Source: Halovivax asiaticus JCM 14624
Lineage (GTDB): Archaea > Halobacteriota > Halobacteria > Halobacteriales > Natrialbaceae
DNA length: 64,000 nucleotides
NCBI RefSeq assembly: GCF_000337515.1
Contig: NZ_AOIQ01000008.1
Coordinates: 39,948 to 103,947 of the forward strand
Reading direction: 5' to 3'
How positions within the stretch are numbered: position 1 is the first letter of the stretch; each line of letters begins with the position of its first letter. Both the position numbers and the translations under genes were made by a program. The notes under the pieces are model-generated. The model was given only the letters and a program-made list of their open reading frames with translations, did no database searches and was not told the DNA's origin. Below, piece after piece: positions 35,429 through 57,350 of the stretch.

Positions 35429-36193
35429 GTGCAGATCGTCGGCTACGAACGGTCGGGACGCGGATCCTCGCTGCTTGTGAGTGACGACGGCGACCTCTCT
35501 CGCACGGCGCTCGAGCGTGACGCGACCCTCGAGTTCGGCCTCGGTGATCGCCACTGTGCGGGGACCATCGATTACGAATCCGGCGACCACGTCCCGTGCG
35601 ATCGCGACGGGGCGCCGTACTGCGACGCGCACACATCGACGTGGGTCTGTGCGCGCTGCACGGGGACCTGTCTCAAAGACGAGATGGACTGTTACGCGGA
35701 CCACGCCGTCTATCTCGCCGCGTTCGCCCCGACGACGTTCAAGGTCGGCGTCACCCGGCTGGAGCGACTCGAAACCCGTCTCAGAGAACAGGGCGCCGAT
35801 CGGGCGGCCCACATCCACACGGTCTCAAACGGCCGGATCGCCCGGGAGCTCGAGGCCGAGATCGCGACCGATCTCACCGACCGGGTCCGGATCGAGCGCA
35901 AGATCGAAGGACTCGCCGCCGACATCGACGATGCGGCCTGGGAATCGGTGCTCGCGACGTTCGACCCGATCGAGTGCTTCTCGTTCGACTACGGCCTCTC
36001 GCTTTCGACACAGCCGGTCACCGAACTCGTGGGAACGGGTACCGTCGTCGGCCTGAAGGGGCGGCTCCTCGTCCTCGAACGGCGTGGAACGACCTACGCG
36101 GTCGACCTCCGGGAACTGGTCGGACACGAACTCGACGCGGACGATGCGACGGCCGACCGACAGTCCTCACTCGGCGCCTTTGCCGGTGACTGA
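35429..36193 (+). CDS. DUF2797 family protein (GIY-YIG-like fold)
   Basis: A 254-residue cytoplasmic protein of the DUF2797 family. N-terminal Cys-rich region (CDRDGAPYCDAHTSTWVCAR, CTGTCLKDEMDCYADHAVYL) forms a probable zinc site. Next comes VYLAAFAPTTFKVGVTRLER, resembling the GIY-YIG nuclease core (V.VG.T motif), then ARELEAEIATDLTDRVRIER. A role in DNA or RNA processing is plausible but unproven. The upstream gene is divergent. Confidence 0.8.
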   Translation: MQIVGYERSGRGSSLLVSDDGDLSRTALERDATLEFGLGDRHCAGTIDYESGDHVPCDRDGAPYCDAHTSTWVCARCTGTCLKDEMDCYADHAVYLAAFAPTTFKVGVTRLERLETRLREQGADRAAHIHTVSNGRIARELEAEIATDLTDRVRIERKIEGLAADIDDAAWESVLATFDPIECFSFDYGLSLSTQPVTELVGTGTVVGLKGRLLVLERRGTTYAVDLRELVGHELDADDATADRQSSLGAFAGD

Positions 36194-36265
36194 GTTCGAC
36201 CCGCGTCCACCGACCACTCCATAGCCATGACAACGTTTTTCCGACCCGCAGGTGAATTCGCGGGC

Positions 36266-36646
36266 ATGTCGGACGATCCTACCGAGGATGCGACGGACGA
36301 GGGAACGGGCGAGGACGACGGCGAAGAAAAGTCGTTCCGCGAGCGCGTCGAGGAGATCCGAGAGAAACGCGAGCAGGAAGGCGGCGACGACGCCCCCGAG
36401 AGTCCGTTCGGCGGCGGCGGCGGTGGCGGAATGGGCGGCGGTGGCATGGGCGGCGGTGGCATGGGCGGCGGCAACCCCTTCGCACAGATGATGGGCGGCA
36501 TGATGGGGGGCGGCCCGGGCGGCGGTGGCCCAGGTGGCGAGGCCGGCAACGAAGAACTCACCCGCGAAGTCCGTCAGCTCCGCGACGAGGTTCGCGACGC
36601 GACGCGACAGCTCCAGCGCATCGCTGACGCCCTCGAAGACGACTGA
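36266..36646 (+). CDS. Gly/Met-rich acidic protein with C-terminal coiled coil
   Basis: A 126-residue protein read from the ATG at 36266. Residues 1-50 are acidic (MSDDPTEDATDEGTGEDDGE). Residues 52-95 are a Gly/Met repeat (three perfect 15-nt DNA repeats at 36431-36475, giving MGGGG units). The C-terminal 35 residues form a charged helix (LTREVRQLRDEVRDATRQLQ RIAD pattern) likely to make a coiled coil. The layout suggests an assembly or membrane-tether protein. No family recognised. Confidence 0.7.
   Translation: MSDDPTEDATDEGTGEDDGEEKSFRERVEEIREKREQEGGDDAPESPFGGGGGGGMGGGGMGGGGMGGGNPFAQMMGGMMGGGPGGGGPGGEAGNEELTREVRQLRDEVRDATRQLQRIADALEDD
36431..36475 (+). repeat. Three tandem 15-nt repeats inside the Gly/Met-rich gene
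   Basis: ATGGGCGGCGGTGGC occurs at 36431-36445 and 36446-36460 exactly, and at 36461-36475 as ATGGGCGGCGGCAAC with two changes. In-frame slippage could change the number of MGGGG units without breaking the gene. Confidence 0.8.
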
Positions 36647-36798: not shown

Positions 36799-38538
36799 TT
36801 ACGAGCGAACGAGCAAGTTTCCGTCGTCGTCGTACCGGTGGCCGATCGACCTGAACTCGTTTCGCACGGCGTCCACGTCGAGTTCGCCGTCTTCGCCGAG
36901 GAACGGCGTCACCGGGTCGACCCCGTCCCATGCGAGCGAGTCGGGTTGCCAGGGTTCGCCGAGCGGCGACGCCACCGGTGTGGCCGCACCGGCGAAGACC
37001 GACTCGACGAGCGATGGCTTGTCGAGGAGACCGGCGATCGTCCGACGGAAATTCGGGTTCAACAGTGGGGCGTTGCGGGTGTTGTACCCGATATAGTAAA
37101 GCGACTGGCTGGGGCGTTCGTGCGTGACCAGGGGTGGCGCCGCGGTGTACGAACTCGCCATCACGGGATCGAGTGCCGACAGCGTCAGGTCGGCCTCACC
37201 GTCTTCGATCGCCGCTACCGCCGCCTCGGTGTCTTCCGTAACGGTCACTTCGAACGTGGTGATCGGCGTCTCCGGAAGCTCGGCAGTCGTCGTGAAGTGG
37301 TCACCGTTTCGGGAGAGGGTGAGGCGCTCGCCTTCCTCACGGTCGTCGAACGAGAAGAGGCCGCTCCCGATCGGGGGAACGTTATCCGTGACGACGGCGA
37401 CCGTCGCGCCACTCGGCGTCTCCACGTCGACGAACTCGGCCGACTCGGTCCGGTCCCGCCAGAGATGGGCCGGCAAGATCGGGATCGTGAACGCTTGCTC
37501 TGTGGCGGCCCTCCCGGCTTCAGGCGTGATCCGAACGCGGTGGTCATCGAGACGGGTGACGTCCGCAATCGCCGTCGCCAGGCCCCGGTAGAGTGGTGCG
37601 GGAATCGGCGCCTCGGCGGAATCCATCGACGTGTCCGCCAGAAAGTCGTACGTGAACGCGACGTCCTCGGCGGAAACCGGCTCACCGTCGTGCCACGACG
37701 TCTCGCGGAGTGTCAGCGTCGCAGTGCCGTCATTCCACGTCCAGGAGTCGGCCAACCACGGGCGTACGTCGCCGTCGACGGTCGTGGCGAGGGAGTCGTA
37801 GAGGAGATCGTCGATCGGCGAACGTGAGTGACGACCCCCGATTCCGAGCGGATTGAAGTGACGCGTCACGCGTTCGTCGGTCACGACGGCCCGAAGCGTC
37901 CCGTCGGCGGCGGTCGACTCGATGTCCACGAACGCGTACCGTTCGGAGAGTGGGTGGCGGTCGAAGCCGACGAATCGATCACCGTTCCAGACGTGACGCG
38001 ACGTCGGCCGACACAGCGGACTGAAGGGTTGGTTGGCGGCAAACGATTCGAGCGTGTCTTCGACGGCCCGTTCGCGAGCGGCTCCCGTTCGGCGTCGCTG
38101 TCGGTCGAGATTCGTATCGAACGAGACGTTCGAGAAACCGTAGGGATTCTGCCAGCCCCACTCCGCGTCGAACCGGGTGTGCAACAGTCCGTACAGTGCC
38201 GACGGATCGGCGAGTCGCGGCGTTCGATCGACGAAGAGATCGAACTCGTGATCGATCAGAATCCGGCGGAGAAAGCGCGATTGCGGAAGCGTCTCTCGCT
38301 CGACGTCGATGCCGGCGGTCTCGAGCGCTGACTCGAGCCGGTCCGCCACGGCGGCTGCCTGGCGGTCGTCGGCGGGACTGACGCTCGCGACCGAGAGCGA
38401 GAACTCGTCGGCCGGGTCGTCGCGAAAGAGGTTCCTGAGTCCGCGCATACAGCCGGACAGTCCGAGGAGGCCACCAGCCGTCGCCGTCCCGAGCACCGTT
38501 CGCCGAGAGAGGGGAGACTCGAGGGTAGTCGAATCCAT
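36799..38538 (-). CDS. Family-5 solute-binding lipoprotein with permuted lobe order, paralog A
   Basis: A 579-residue exported lipoprotein. The twin-arginine signal (LSRRTVLGTATAGG) ends in the lipobox LGLSGC, Cys30. It belongs to SBP_bac_5 (oligopeptide/nickel-type ABC binding proteins): NGTAT-like region LRETSWHDGEPVSAEDVAFT (the DGEP.TAEDV motif), PILPAHLWRD. The order is unusual: residues about 40-200 (LSVASVSPADDRQAAAVADR, FLRRILIDHEFDLFVDRTPR, GWQNPYGFSNVSFDTNLDRQ) match the usual C-terminal lobe, while the protein ends where canonical ones have the lobe junction. No permease or ATPase gene is near. Confidence 0.85.
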   Translation of the reverse strand: MDSTTLESPLSRRTVLGTATAGGLLGLSGCMRGLRNLFRDDPADEFSLSVASVSPADDRQAAAVADRLESALETAGIDVERETLPQSRFLRRILIDHEFDLFVDRTPRLADPSALYGLLHTRFDAEWGWQNPYGFSNVSFDTNLDRQRRRTGAARERAVEDTLESFAANQPFSPLCRPTSRHVWNGDRFVGFDRHPLSERYAFVDIESTAADGTLRAVVTDERVTRHFNPLGIGGRHSRSPIDDLLYDSLATTVDGDVRPWLADSWTWNDGTATLTLRETSWHDGEPVSAEDVAFTYDFLADTSMDSAEAPIPAPLYRGLATAIADVTRLDDHRVRITPEAGRAATEQAFTIPILPAHLWRDRTESAEFVDVETPSGATVAVVTDNVPPIGSGLFSFDDREEGERLTLSRNGDHFTTTAELPETPITTFEVTVTEDTEAAVAAIEDGEADLTLSALDPVMASSYTAAPPLVTHERPSQSLYYIGYNTRNAPLLNPNFRRTIAGLLDKPSLVESVFAGAATPVASPLGEPWQPDSLAWDGVDPVTPFLGEDGELDVDAVRNEFRSIGHRYDDDGNLLVRS

Positions 38539-38660: not shown

Positions 38661-39548
38661 CTACCGGTGCCTTCGTTCGTCAGCACTGTCACCGGTCGCT
38701 CTGACCCGATCGGCGACAGCGCCAAGACGGTCGTAGGCGGGCTGGAGGTGGCTGTCGACATCGTATCGGCCGATCAAGCGACACGAGAGCCAGACGCACG
38801 TCCCCGCCAGGAGCAGGCCTCCCAGGACGTCGATCGCCCAGTGAATGCCCAGATACATCGTCGAGAGCCAGACGCTCACGGCCAGGACGCTCGCCGCTGG
38901 GGTCCACGCGGGGAATTGCGATCGAGACCTGATCGCGAAGATCATGACGGTCGCAGAGAGCGACGTGTGAAGCGACGGAAACACGTTCGTGTAGTGGTTG
39001 ATCTCTCTGGTGAGGAGCTGATAGGACGGTTCGAACGTATAGAGCATCGTCTCGACGTCGCTCCCGAAGTATTGTCGTGGGCCAAAGGCGTGGAACAATA
39101 CGTACAGCGTGACGCCGATCGTATAGTTGAGTGCGTACGCACCGAGCAGACGCCGCAATTTCGTCGAGTCTTGCAGCGTGAAGTACATCACGACCGGGAA
39201 GATCAGCAAGAACACGTAGCCGTAGATGTAGATGAACGAGAAGTACTGTGTGAGCTGTGTCGAGGCGATCGTCTCGAAGACGAGAATGAACCGGCCCTCG
39301 ATGACGTAGAAGAGGTCACCGACCCGGAAGCCGTACTCCTGGGAGATGGTGACGAGATCCTGCCTGGCGAGTTTGTTCACGATCAACACGGGGACGAGCG
39401 CGAGCGTCACGGGCAACGCAGCACGGACACGCGGTCGCCAGTTGCGAAGCGCCTGGAAGAGGGTACCGAACCCGATAACCTGCCAGATTGCGATCGCCAG
39501 CAAGAGCGCGACGATGACGGTAACCCGACTCAGGATACTGACGAGCAT
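38661..39548 (-). CDS. PAP2/Aur1-like membrane phosphatase or phosphotransferase
   Basis: A 295-residue polytopic protein with about six membrane segments. The PAP2 motifs are FPSLHTSLSATVMIF and STMYLGIHWAIDVLGGLLLA, with His and Asp of the phosphatase site. The PSLHTS and YLG.H..ID variants are those of Aur1-type inositol phosphorylceramide synthases rather than classical PAP phosphatases. A role in polar lipid headgroup transfer or polyprenyl phosphate recycling is inferred. Its ATG overlaps the stop of the upstream solute-binding gene by one base (TGATG), so the pair is translated together. Confidence 0.85.
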   Translation of the reverse strand: MLVSILSRVTVIVALLLAIAIWQVIGFGTLFQALRNWRPRVRAALPVTLALVPVLIVNKLARQDLVTISQEYGFRVGDLFYVIEGRFILVFETIASTQLTQYFSFIYIYGYVFLLIFPVVMYFTLQDSTKLRRLLGAYALNYTIGVTLYVLFHAFGPRQYFGSDVETMLYTFEPSYQLLTREINHYTNVFPSLHTSLSATVMIFAIRSRSQFPAWTPAASVLAVSVWLSTMYLGIHWAIDVLGGLLLAGTCVWLSCRLIGRYDVDSHLQPAYDRLGAVADRVRATGDSADERRHR

Positions 39549-41290
39549 CAGTTGCCCACCACCAGTTCGTCCGAGTCGTTGTACTCGAAGCTCGCCTCGC
39601 GGAACAGATCCCGTGCGGCCTCGACGTCCACCTCACCGTCGGTGCCGACGAACGGCGTCTCCGGATCGGCACCCTCCCACGCGTAGTCATCCATCGCCGA
39701 CGTATCGACTTTTGGGACCGAGAGTGGTTGTGCGTGACCGTGGAAGACGGTCTCCGCGAGCCACTGTCGATCGATCAGGGAGGCGACGGCCCGGCGGAAT
39801 CGATGGTTGCTGAACGGGTGTTTCTGGGTGTTGAACCCGATCTGGTAATACGCCCACCCCGGATCGGTAATTCGGGTGGCCGTCTCCATCTCCTGGGTCT
39901 CGCCGATGACGTCGGCTTCGATCGGCGTAACGAGGGCCGAAGCGTCACCAGCGTCGACCATCTCGATCGCCACCGACCCGTTGGAGGCGTTTCTGAGGAC
40001 GAGCGACTCGACGGGAACGCCCGGAAGGTCCGGATCCTCGACCGAGAAGTGTTCGTCGAATCGACCGAGCGTGAGCTGGTCCCCCTGTACCCAGCTCTCG
40101 AACTGGTATGGACCGCTCCCAACGTGGCTGAGCGACTCGGCCATGAGTTCCTCACGGAGCCAAGTGGCCGTCGAGGCCGTCTCCTCGTCGAGTTCGTCGA
40201 CGAGCGGTCGCCAGACGTGCTCCGGGAGGATCGGAACGGTGAGGACGGACGTCGCCACCTCTCGGGAGGCGTCGACGGTACATTCGACCGTCTGGTCGTC
40301 GAGTGCCGTCGCTGAGGTGACCGCGGATGTCTCCCGGCGAAACCGGGGCGCCGGGACCGGGGAGTCCGCTCGCCCGAGCGAGAGGTCGGTGAGGAATTCG
40401 AACGTAAAGGCGACGTCTTCGGCAGTGAGCGGTTCGCCGTCGTGACACGTCAGGTCGGGCCGCATCGTCGCCGTGAGCCGTCCGTCCTGCCACTCCCAGT
40501 CGCGAGCCATCCAGGGAGACAGCCCGTCACCCGACTGGGTCGCCAGCGAGTCGTACAGAAGCGAAGTGATTGCACCCGTATGGCGGTAGTGAGTGGCGAG
40601 GGGATTCAGGTTCTGCGTCGGTCGGGCATCCGTGACGAGGCCGTCGAACTGATCGACGTCGGCGGCCGGATCGAGATCGACGTAGCCGAGTCGGGTCCGA
40701 AACGACTGACGATCCCAGCCGGTGAACTCCTCGTCGTTGACGGCGTAGTAGGCCGCAGGCGCACAGACCGGGACGAACGGCTTCGTGGCAAGGAAGCTAT
40801 CGAAGACGGACTCGATCGCGGTGGTCCGGTCGGTTCCGGTCGCGTGTCTGAGTTGTTCGAGTCGCTCGTCGAGATCGATGTTCGTCACCCCATAGGGGTT
40901 CTGCCACCCGGGCTCGTACGCGAACGTCGAGTGGAAGAGCTCGTACAGCCCGTCAGGTCGCGGTGTTCCGGGATACCGACCGACAAAGATGTCGAAGTCT
41001 TGGTCTATCAAGACCTTCTTTTCGAACTGGGCAGTCGTCCTGAGATCCGGAGTGACGTCGATACCGGCCGCCCGAAGTGACGATGCGAGGTGTTTGAAGA
41101 TCCCATTGCTCTGGCGATCGTCGTCGTCCGGAACCGTCGTGATCGTCACCGAAAGCTGATCGCCCCACGACGCGACCTCGGTGAACAGTTCCGTGCAACC
41201 GCTGGTCGAAAGGGTAACCCCGGTCCCGACGGTCGCGAGAAACGCCCGACGAGAGCGTCGACCGCTCGAATGCGGTCCGGTTCCGGTCAT
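39548..41290 (-). CDS. Family-5 solute-binding lipoprotein with permuted lobe order, paralog B
   Basis: A 580-residue exported lipoprotein. Tat signal (SSGRRSRRAFLATVGTG) ends in STSGC, Cys32. Residues 45-200 (QLSVTITTVPDDDDRQSNGI, DQDFDIFVGRYPGTPRPDGL, GWQNPYGVTNIDLDERLEQL, and KPFVPVC) resemble the canonical C-terminal lobe of SBP_bac_5. Residues 218-580 (LVTDARPTQNLNPLATHYRH, then TCHDGEPLTAEDVAFTFEFL, LTVPILPEHVWRPL) resemble the canonical N-terminal lobes. The protein stops after VDVEAARDLFREASFEYNDS. It is co-translated with the PAP2 gene. Ligand unknown. Confidence 0.85.
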   Translation of the reverse strand: MTGTGPHSSGRRSRRAFLATVGTGVTLSTSGCTELFTEVASWGDQLSVTITTVPDDDDRQSNGIFKHLASSLRAAGIDVTPDLRTTAQFEKKVLIDQDFDIFVGRYPGTPRPDGLYELFHSTFAYEPGWQNPYGVTNIDLDERLEQLRHATGTDRTTAIESVFDSFLATKPFVPVCAPAAYYAVNDEEFTGWDRQSFRTRLGYVDLDPAADVDQFDGLVTDARPTQNLNPLATHYRHTGAITSLLYDSLATQSGDGLSPWMARDWEWQDGRLTATMRPDLTCHDGEPLTAEDVAFTFEFLTDLSLGRADSPVPAPRFRRETSAVTSATALDDQTVECTVDASREVATSVLTVPILPEHVWRPLVDELDEETASTATWLREELMAESLSHVGSGPYQFESWVQGDQLTLGRFDEHFSVEDPDLPGVPVESLVLRNASNGSVAIEMVDAGDASALVTPIEADVIGETQEMETATRITDPGWAYYQIGFNTQKHPFSNHRFRRAVASLIDRQWLAETVFHGHAQPLSVPKVDTSAMDDYAWEGADPETPFVGTDGEVDVEAARDLFREASFEYNDSDELVVGN

Positions 41291-56393: not shown

Positions 56394-56567
56394 CCGGATC
56401 AGGCGGCCGATGGGCCGTCCGGCGACCGGCCGACTACCTCGGGCCCACCCGCGACCGGTCACCGACTCGGGCACGCCAGCGACAGGTGGACCGGTTGGGC
56501 GACCGGAAAGCGCCAAGCGAGTCGAGACTCCGACGCGCTTTTCGCAGTCCGCGTGAACGACACCTGT

Positions 56568-57350
56568 ATGGACGACGAGCTGGAGATCCTGGTGACGAAC
56601 GACGACGGCATCGACGCGCCGGGAATCCAGGCCATGGCGGACGGGCTCGCGGCCGTCGGCGACGTCACGGTCGTCGCGCCGGCGGACGACCAGAGTGCCG
56701 TGGGGCGGCGCCTCTCGGAGGAGGTGACGGTCGAAGAACGGTCGGACGGCTACGCCGTGAGCGGGACGCCCGCAGACTGTGTCGTCGCCGGTTTCTCCGA
56801 ACTGGTCCCGGATCCGGATCTGGTCGTCGCGGGCTGTAACGAGGGGGCGAATCTCGGCGCGTACGTCCTCGGGCGCTCCGGGACGATCAGCGCCGCCGTC
56901 GAAGCCGCCTTCTTCGGCGCGCCGGCGATCGCCACCTCGATGTACGTCCCCGTGGGCGAGGGGACGCTCGACGACGTTCAGACGACGCCAGACGACTTCG
57001 CCGAACCGGCGCGAGCGACGCGGCACCTGGTCGAGCAGTCGATAGCAGGCGGCGTCTTCGAGGAGGCCTCGTATCTGAACGTCAACGTCCCGATGGACGC
57101 CGGCGCGGACCTCCCGATGGACGTCACGTACCCCTCGACGCGCTACGAGATGACCGCCGAGCGCGACGGGACGACGATCACGGTCGAGGATCGCGTCTGG
57201 GAGTCGATGGATCCGGAGACCATTCCGGACCCGCCGGGAACCGATCGGCGCGCAGTCGCGGAGGGGCGGATCAGCGTCTCCCCGCTGGTCGCACCCCACA
57301 CCTCGGGGTCGCTCGACGCACTGGAGTCGATCGTCGCCGCGTATCCGTGA
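56568..57350 (+). CDS. surE: SurE 5'/3'-nucleotidase
   Basis: A 260-residue phosphatase. Metal site: EILVTNDDGIDAPGIQAM (Asp-Asp), then VVAPADDQSAVGRRLS and SGTPADCVVAGFSELV, the conserved SurE motifs. The loop AGCNEGANLGAYVLGRSGTI matches the family SGIN.G.N.G, but with Cys in place of the usual Ile. It acts on nucleotide monophosphates in stress or cleanup. I start at the ATG at 56568. Confidence 0.92.
   Translation: MDDELEILVTNDDGIDAPGIQAMADGLAAVGDVTVVAPADDQSAVGRRLSEEVTVEERSDGYAVSGTPADCVVAGFSELVPDPDLVVAGCNEGANLGAYVLGRSGTISAAVEAAFFGAPAIATSMYVPVGEGTLDDVQTTPDDFAEPARATRHLVEQSIAGGVFEEASYLNVNVPMDAGADLPMDVTYPSTRYEMTAERDGTTITVEDRVWESMDPETIPDPPGTDRRAVAEGRISVSPLVAPHTSGSLDALESIVAAYP

Follow-up and report, generated by a model that had tools for sequence, protein, structure and literature searches.

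A circularly permuted binding lipoprotein of haloarchaea and its Aur1-like PAP2 neighbor: a probable partnership outside transport

Orphan substrate-binding proteins (SBPs) that serve as partners of envelope enzymes are already known from mycobacteria, and a circularly permuted binding lipoprotein, of the type I fold, has also been described (PMC4990184, in the part of that article available here). The accessible part of one report describes an interaction of the orphan SBP-like lipoprotein LpqZ with AftA and of FecB, a second such lipoprotein, with AftB and also with a third protein, MMAR_1667 (PMC12802301). LpqW is said, in the available portion of another article, to channel a lipid-linked intermediate of phosphatidylinositol mannoside (PIM)/lipomannan synthesis (PMC3229680). 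The permuted lipoprotein is TpMglB-2 (Tp0684), a "Cluster Bc" protein that binds D-glucose and has been proposed to be a chemoreceptor (PMC4990184, same part). Here, these systems are compared with a locus of Halovivax asiaticus JCM 14624, contained in a stretch of 64,000 nucleotides (contig NZ_AOIQ01000008.1, positions 39,948 to 103,947; referred to below as the window), in which the gene for a permuted SBP lipoprotein (paralog B) is joined to that of a PAP2-family membrane protein (PAP2) and followed by a second lipoprotein gene (paralog A). The original prediction, made from the letters of the DNA alone, was that these lipoproteins act with the membrane enzyme and do not feed an importer. 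The analysis favors a reading of this kind: the orphan SBP is probably the extracytoplasmic partner of an Aur1-like PAP2 phosphotransferase, not an importer subunit. The argument is built on the following features of the window.

39548-41290, minus strand: paralog B, a twin-arginine translocation (Tat)-type lipoprotein of 580 amino acids (aa), a circularly permuted SBP_bac_5 protein (open reading frame (ORF), PF00496)
41195-41290, minus strand: signal part of B (residues 1-32), with the twin arginines R14 R15 and a lipobox whose last residue is C32 (invariant residues)
40691-41161, minus strand: B residues 44-200, counterpart of the C-terminal part of canonical SBP_bac_5 (A3 profile against AppA; N-part/C-part hidden Markov model test)
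39566-40639, minus strand: B residues 218-575, counterpart of the N-terminal portion and the middle of canonical SBPs (A3 profile against AppA; VIA-align with 1xoc)
39546-39550, minus strand: TGATG junction of B and PAP2 (from the sequence)
38661-39548, minus strand: PAP2, an Aur1-like membrane protein of 295 aa (PF14378, PF01569, predicted fold)
38961-38981, minus strand: PAP2 motif FPSLHTS, residues 190-196, with H194 (FPSLH invariant in 18/18 and 24/24 sequences)
38829-38864, minus strand: PAP2 motif STMYLGIHWAID, residues 229-240, with T230, H236, and D240 (all three invariant in 24/24)
36799-38538, minus strand: paralog A, a second permuted SBP lipoprotein of 579 aa, without a PAP2 of its own (ORF, PF00496)

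The likeness to LpqZ and FecB is one of working mode and not of homology family: in both cases, an SBP-fold lipoprotein without a transporter stands beside an envelope-building membrane enzyme. However, the accessible part of that report assigns the mycobacterial proteins to other SBP subfamilies (ProX-like and FecB-like) and makes no mention of permutation, their partners are arabinosyltransferases and not PAP2 proteins, and their enzyme contacts were demonstrated by co-immunoprecipitation, whereas contact between the SBP and PAP2 is a prediction (PMC12802301). LpqW (2grv) has the same SBP fold as B (Z 19.2, root-mean-square deviation (rmsd) 4.1, 323 residues) but is not permuted like it, because the N-terminal part of LpqW (25-386) matches the C-terminal part of B, as in canonical SBPs. 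LpqW is not known to have a PAP2 partner. TpMglB-2 resembles B as a membrane-tethered binding protein of circularly permuted topology, as far as the available part of its description goes (PMC4990184); its fold is Type I/cluster B, and its permutation is therefore independent of that of B.

Both lipoproteins match PF00496 above the cut-off (B, 5.5e-45; A, 9.2e-42), and both carry a twin-arginine signal together with a lipobox-type cysteine. R14, R15, L18, G31, and C32 are invariant in all 26 sequences of alignment A3 and all 15 of alignment A1, and the R14/R15...C32 signature of B is taken here to be a Tat lipobox. Aligned as a single sequence, B 224-512 falls on positions 18-289 of a canonical SBP and B 126-195 on positions 439-510, the latter match being weak alone (i-Evalue 240). 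With the profile of 26 homologs (A3), positions 234-524 align to AppA 45-311 (8e-25) and positions 34-187 to AppA 352-501 (8e-7); since both pieces are significant and occur in swapped order, the permutation of B is real, as originally predicted. A and B alike are circularly permuted forms of the SBP_bac_5 fold, and neither has the canonical domain order. The AlphaFold2 model of B (mean predicted local distance difference test score (pLDDT) 86.6) superimposes on AppA (1xoc) with Z 22.2 and rmsd 2.9 over 329 residues, model 207-580 on chain 18-357; VIA-align keeps sequence order, its rows covering mainly model residues 209-580 and barely the N-terminal segment. In a scan of named genomes, the homologs at loci L034-L053, all haloarchaeal, were permuted, and L054 has a split frame whose two pieces are ordered as in permuted SBPs (labels of the form L034, G138, C9, f7, and g49 are our own for loci, genomes, contigs, families, and genera).

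PAP2 matches PF14378 at 4.7e-16 (59.6 bits, cut-off 27) and PF01569 at 1.5e-11. At the site of its FPSLHTS motif, the alignment has FPSLHS in AUR1 and FPSGHT in PgpB; at the site of STMYLGIHWAID, it has STMYLTHHYFVD in AUR1 and SRLLLGMHWPRD in PgpB, with the PgpB Arg standing where PAP2 has T230. The Thr of STMYLxxHxxxD is common to the PAP2 family and AUR1, and all 24 family members carry the Aur1-type catalytic motifs (SLH and not SGH, with no Arg before HxxxD), a combination that we take as a mark of transferases. In a Foldseek search with the AlphaFold2 model (pLDDT 85.7), Aur1-Kei1 (9ivc) and inositol phosphorylceramide (IPC) synthase (9vj4) ranked first and second (E 6.8e-4 and 1.5e-3). 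VIA-align likewise gave IPC synthase Z 17.6 and Aur1 Z 17.5 (rmsd 3.4-3.5, 216-221 residues), with LpxE (15.5), SMSr (14.6), and PgpB-type proteins (10.2-13.5) at lower ranks. PAP2 is thus Aur1-like in its motifs and predicted fold, in agreement with the original prediction; the two share the FPSLH and STMYLxxHxxxD motifs at about 15-19% identity, a likeness that does not imply the sphingolipid substrates or the Kei1 subunit of Aur1. Mean net charges of +3.7, +0.2, and +1.3 for the presumed inside loops and of -1.6, -1.1, and 0 for the presumed outside loops would place the loops bearing H194 and H236 outside the cell.

On the minus strand of the window, the gene order is B, PAP2, A. Base 39548 is shared by the stop codon of B (TGA, 39548-39550) and the start codon of PAP2 (ATG, 39546-39548), and A, 36% identical to B, follows on the same strand, so that the shared base and the neighboring paralog both stand as first described. 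The predicted lack of permease and ATPase genes agrees with a motif scan of the window, in which no ORF had Walker A and LSGGQ together and the sole permease-like pattern match (56553-57347) was without a predicted transmembrane helix. Among 61 loci of the order chosen from the best SBP matches, PAP2 lies directly downstream on the same strand in 60, the exception being L115. No ORF with both ABC-ATPase motifs occurs in 53 of these loci, where permeases were not searched separately; the remaining eight contain such ORFs, but apart from the SBP-PAP2 pair. All 12 haloarchaeal plasmid matches of the SBP have an annotated PAP2 gene directly downstream, and no Dpp permease is annotated beside them in a gene table that is incomplete. 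Two Haladaptatus plasmids have an ABC ATPase of another type near the pair. In the thirteenth match of the set, which is bacterial and 27% identical, two permease and two ATPase genes stand in place of PAP2. The PAP2 neighbor is therefore conserved at the haloarchaeal loci compared, and orthologs were not found beside DppBCDF genes, although distant permuted relatives do adjoin importers. The genes of 62 of 68 pairs, taken from eight family codes and named genera with start codons chosen by rule, overlap or lie at most 10 nt apart (25 at -1, 12 at -4, and 25 at +1 to +9). Such closeness exceeds chance, but overlap is not universal: of the 12 annotated plasmid pairs, 5 overlap, whereas in the other 7 about 20 to 210 nt separate the genes.

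The two genes also come and go together. In a sample of 117 haloarchaeal genomes, some of them incomplete, 64 have both, 52 neither, none PAP2 only, and 1 SBP only, giving both or neither in 116 (Fisher 9e-33, with no correction for phylogeny); in the SBP-only genome (G138), the SBP gene is cut by a contig end. There are 94 strong PAP2 rows (E <= 1e-70) in the 64 genomes, 67 of them with an SBP directly upstream, and the genes are adjacent in 58 of the 64, from 13 family codes. Both are present but unlinked in six genomes (genera g49/g59 of f7 and g51 of f10), and the genera g45, g52, g55, and g47 each include genomes with the two genes as well as genomes that lack them both. In the family of H. 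asiaticus, 119 of 125 genomes have an SBP match of 1e-68 or better. A sample of 246 genomes from the phylum, searched with PAP2 only, yielded matches at E <= 1e-70 exclusively from the same order, the best other match being 6e-45. What accompanies the SBP steadily, in the window as at homologous loci, is a membrane enzyme, with no associated transporter found by motif scan or annotation. The part of the original prediction that places the lipoprotein with the enzyme and not with an importer is thus supported; the permutation by itself, as set out below, does not mark a role outside transport. A lipid or sugar phosphate bound by the SBP and transferred by PAP2, the example given in the original prediction, would be one candidate route.

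A third protein shows a similar distribution. MPX is an unannotated membrane-protein family of about 420-490 aa with a conserved N-terminal region that is presumably extracytoplasmic (alignment A5). At a match cut-off of 1e-20, 58 of the 117 genomes have both MPX and SBP, 7 SBP only, 2 MPX only, and 50 neither (Fisher 8e-23, again uncorrected for phylogeny). Copies lie at the following places.

G000:C17:286863-288101, minus strand: MPX copy of the H. asiaticus genome, outside the window
L205:8855-10108: MPX copy, with others in L213, L214, L047, L049-L053, L171, L173, L176, L197, and L198

By hand comparison of rows, the gene directly upstream of SBP and in the same orientation is MPX in 10 of the 58 genomes with both (G128, G144, G145, G155, G164, G166, G172, G185, G186, and G227); in three more (G146, G174, and G188), MPX lies within about 1 kb of a PAP2 gene that lacks an SBP. 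Searches returned no PDB sequence match, no NCBIfam match over the cut-off, and, for five members in Pfam, nothing better than 0.0097. An identity of MPX with LssY_C (PF14067) is unsupported, as the five members gave no PF14067 match up to E 10; PF14067 members for comparison were found in 0 of 10 genomes.

Taken together, the gene pair would encode a two-part extracytoplasmic module. The permuted SBP would be exported by the Tat route and then lipid-anchored at the outer membrane face, in contact with PAP2, its dedicated partner, whose catalytic histidines would lie on the same side of the membrane. Instead of passing a solute to an ABC importer, the SBP would most likely present a substrate to PAP2, or else hold or regulate it. 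PAP2, presumably by transferase and not phosphatase chemistry, would shift a phosphate-linked group from one surface lipid or glycoconjugate to another, and MPX, encoded elsewhere in the genome, would probably be part of the same system. Presentation of a substrate or holding of PAP2 is proposed because an importer-less lipoprotein found almost always with PAP2 and usually with MPX resembles LpqZ-AftA, FecB-AftB-MMAR_1667, and LpqW. A more specific version, offered tentatively and with less than even confidence, is a three-part complex of permuted SBP, PAP2, and MPX for surface phospho-glycoconjugate synthesis or polar-lipid headgroup remodeling outside the cell; the SBP might be its obligate substrate-presenting subunit, the permutation shifting the lipid anchor to the other lobe and setting the cleft against the enzyme.

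The history of the SBP was examined in a tree of 86 rows, made by a quick method with long rows present, that comprised 43 of 68 PAP2-linked SBPs, all 19 without an adjacent PAP2, 12 importer-linked permuted SBPs, and 12 of 23 canonical ones. The 62 haloarchaeal SBPs of the B/A kind, PAP2-linked and unlinked, form one clade (Shimodaira-Hasegawa-like approximate likelihood ratio test (SH-aLRT) 100*, stem 1.02). Of the importer-linked rows, 11 of 12 join at 87 and L063 stands alone, the split uniting all 12 having a support of 2. A single origin of the permutation is unsupported, because the permuted side of the tree also holds 4 of the 12 canonical rows. Paralog A is joined (99*) by the second SBPs of G032, G029, and G030, and in G030 (L146), from the same genus, this second SBP still has its PAP2. 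The triad is thus explained most simply by tandem duplication of an SBP-PAP2 unit followed by loss of the second PAP2. Arrays of SBP-PAP2-SBP-PAP2 exist, and an annotated Natronorubrum bangense row reads YhbY, RNase P component 4, SBP, PAP2, SBP, PAP2, hypothetical, DUF2797. Within double arrays, the SBPs are 0.40-0.65 and the PAP2 proteins 0.42-0.67 identical. SBP and PAP2 distances over 67 pairs are correlated (Mantel r 0.87, 0/999 permutations), which common descent alone also raises.

Several other explanations were weighed. The SBPs might be ordinary orphan receptors for a Dpp/Opp-type importer encoded elsewhere, with PAP2 merely co-transcribed; their fold is that of peptide, nickel, and sugar SBPs, two weak SBP matches lie elsewhere in the genome (C21 and C6), and distant permuted SBPs, bacterial and some haloarchaeal (Aliihoeflea, Halomonas socia, Pararhodobacter, Nitratireductor, Halogeometricum limi, and other haloarchaea), adjoin permease and/or ABC ATPase genes without a PAP2. 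These relatives have the permuted domain order of B (L199 by one collinear tblastn piece), are 24-27% identical to it where reported, and occupy a separate part of the tree; permeases and ATPases are both present in 7 of 13 such loci (L056, L057, L061, L063, L164, L166, and L199), and for the other 6 (L055, L058, L162, L163, L165, and L167), only part of the set was recorded. Permutation alone is therefore no mark of a role outside transport. With PAP2 in 64 of 65 SBP-bearing genomes, adjacency in 13 family codes, and the clade on its long stem away from the importer-linked permuted SBPs, the receptor explanation is nevertheless unlikely. Short gene overlaps are common in archaeal operons, so that the arrangement could in principle be a neutral operon accident of haloarchaeal genomes; adjacency in 58 genomes and at all 12 plasmid matches, together with the coupling of presence and absence even in the six genomes with unlinked genes, makes this hardly credible.

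It is rather doubtful that PAP2 is a phosphatase, with the SBP capturing a phosphorylated solute or lipid headgroup, PAP2 cleaving off the phosphate outside the cell, and the product entering through an unlinked transporter as the outcome of a scavenging pair. Such a role would suit the profile match to the PAP2 family as well as the conserved His-His-Asp set, the sequence profile of the family favors PgpB-type phosphatases (6e-6) over AUR1 (0.01), and some proteins of the SBP fold bind sugar-2-phosphates (AccA, per structure entry titles). On the other side, all 24 family members share with AUR1 a Thr in place of the Arg found in the PgpB motif SRxxxxxH, and Aur1/IPC synthase leads the fold ranking. 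A further alternative, which appears quite improbable, is that the SBP binds no enzyme substrate and serves a PAP2 and MPX surface complex either as ligand-gated sensor or as assembly factor; in favor of this, mycobacterial LpqZ and FecB conserve their enzyme-contact surfaces and not the ligand cleft (PMC12802301, accessible part), and LpqW, of the same fold, has the channeling role already mentioned (PMC3229680, available portion).

Besides the family profile and the importer-linked relatives, other points weigh against the SBP as a dedicated partner of a PAP2 transferase. No physical, genetic, or biochemical data on any member of the module were found. The "strong" cut-offs were set by the authors at visible gaps (1e-72 to 1e-44 for PAP2 and 2e-71 to 7e-41 for the best SBP per genome). 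An SBP directly upstream is missing from 27 of the 94 strong PAP2 rows, one of them in H. asiaticus itself, and PAP2 relatives can thus act from another locus. Conversely, by a reading of rows, 16 SBP genes of the clade lack a PAP2 of their own: seven triad second genes, the one cut by a contig end, and eight others (G162, G191, four f7 genomes, and two f10 genomes). The module is also dispensable, since 6 of the 125 same-family genomes have only weak SBP matches (best E 1.5e-8 to 4e-15). In PAP2, the C-terminal tail (net -1.3) breaks the positive-inside rule, and one inner loop is near neutral. The double arrays, finally, lend only loose support as proof of joint duplication, the same nearest partner being found by SBP and by PAP2 in just 7 of 16 double-array units.

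Near the triad lie an RNase P component 4-like gene (PF04032, 41540-41965) and a DUF2797 gene (35429-36193), and beside A, on the plus strand (36227-36646), is a 139-aa ORF rich in glycine and methionine with no Pfam family over the cut-off. A second PAP2 copy of H. asiaticus, without an SBP, is found at G000:C9:165116-165901 (L168), with similar copies in related genomes (L169, L184, L185, and L187); its neighbors are presumably rps7 and RNA polymerase A subunits, and probable ribosomal protein and RNA polymerase genes also adjoin the copies in the related genomes.

In a number of non-Natrialbaceae loci, the pair is flanked by an arylsulfotransferase gene (ASST; all four loci tested match PF05935) and by a GT-C/PMT-like membrane gene (two of the four loci tested match PF13231), at L115, L119, L131, L133, L137, L139, L141, L160, L193, L195-L198, L200, L201, and L204, with glmM/glmS next to them on some plasmids. 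ASST occurs in 15 and GT-C in 20 of 73 compared loci, a set in which 17 loci have a PAP2 but no SBP; many of these occurrences are non-Natrialbaceae. Both were rejected as core components because their distribution over the 117 genomes is independent of the pair (Fisher 0.36 and 0.66). These surroundings, glmM/glmS included, possibly represent a surface-glycan island. The SBP gene of a Salinigranum rubrum plasmid (L193, 6658-7771) is annotated as two shorter genes, and a Haladaptatus halobius plasmid (L202, 5115-5495) retains only a short arylsulfotransferase match, suggesting that the island may decay in places. Plasmids of Haloarcula and Haladaptatus carry, close to the pair, a YdjM-like membrane "metal-dependent hydrolase" (L196, 5229-5804, where PF04307 was tested; L201, 11729-12277).

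The clade of permuted SBP_bac_5 proteins, the PAP2 protein that accompanies it, and MPX appear to be new: no report of the SBP-PAP2 pair or of MPX was found in the open-licence literature, nor was a permuted SBP_bac_5 protein in the accessible parts of that literature on circular permutation. The main text of a review of archaeal glycerophospholipid synthesis, in its available part, does not contain the term "PAP2" (PMC9385802). MPX represents a new gene family traced by its phyletic profile. Plasmid copies of the pair are annotated "ABC transporter substrate-binding protein" and "phosphatase PAP2 family protein" (in one strain, "inositol phosphorylceramide synthase"); the first of these names is probably misleading, and the PAP2 name perhaps is as well.

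If the proposed partnership is correct, archaea and mycobacteria would have recruited orphan SBPs to surface-building enzymes separately from one another, which would suggest that the binding-protein fold is of general use beyond transport. The pair would then be a concrete candidate for extracytoplasmic phospho-transfer involving lipids or glycans in haloarchaea. These results suggest a binding protein that helps to build the cell surface instead of feeding the cell.

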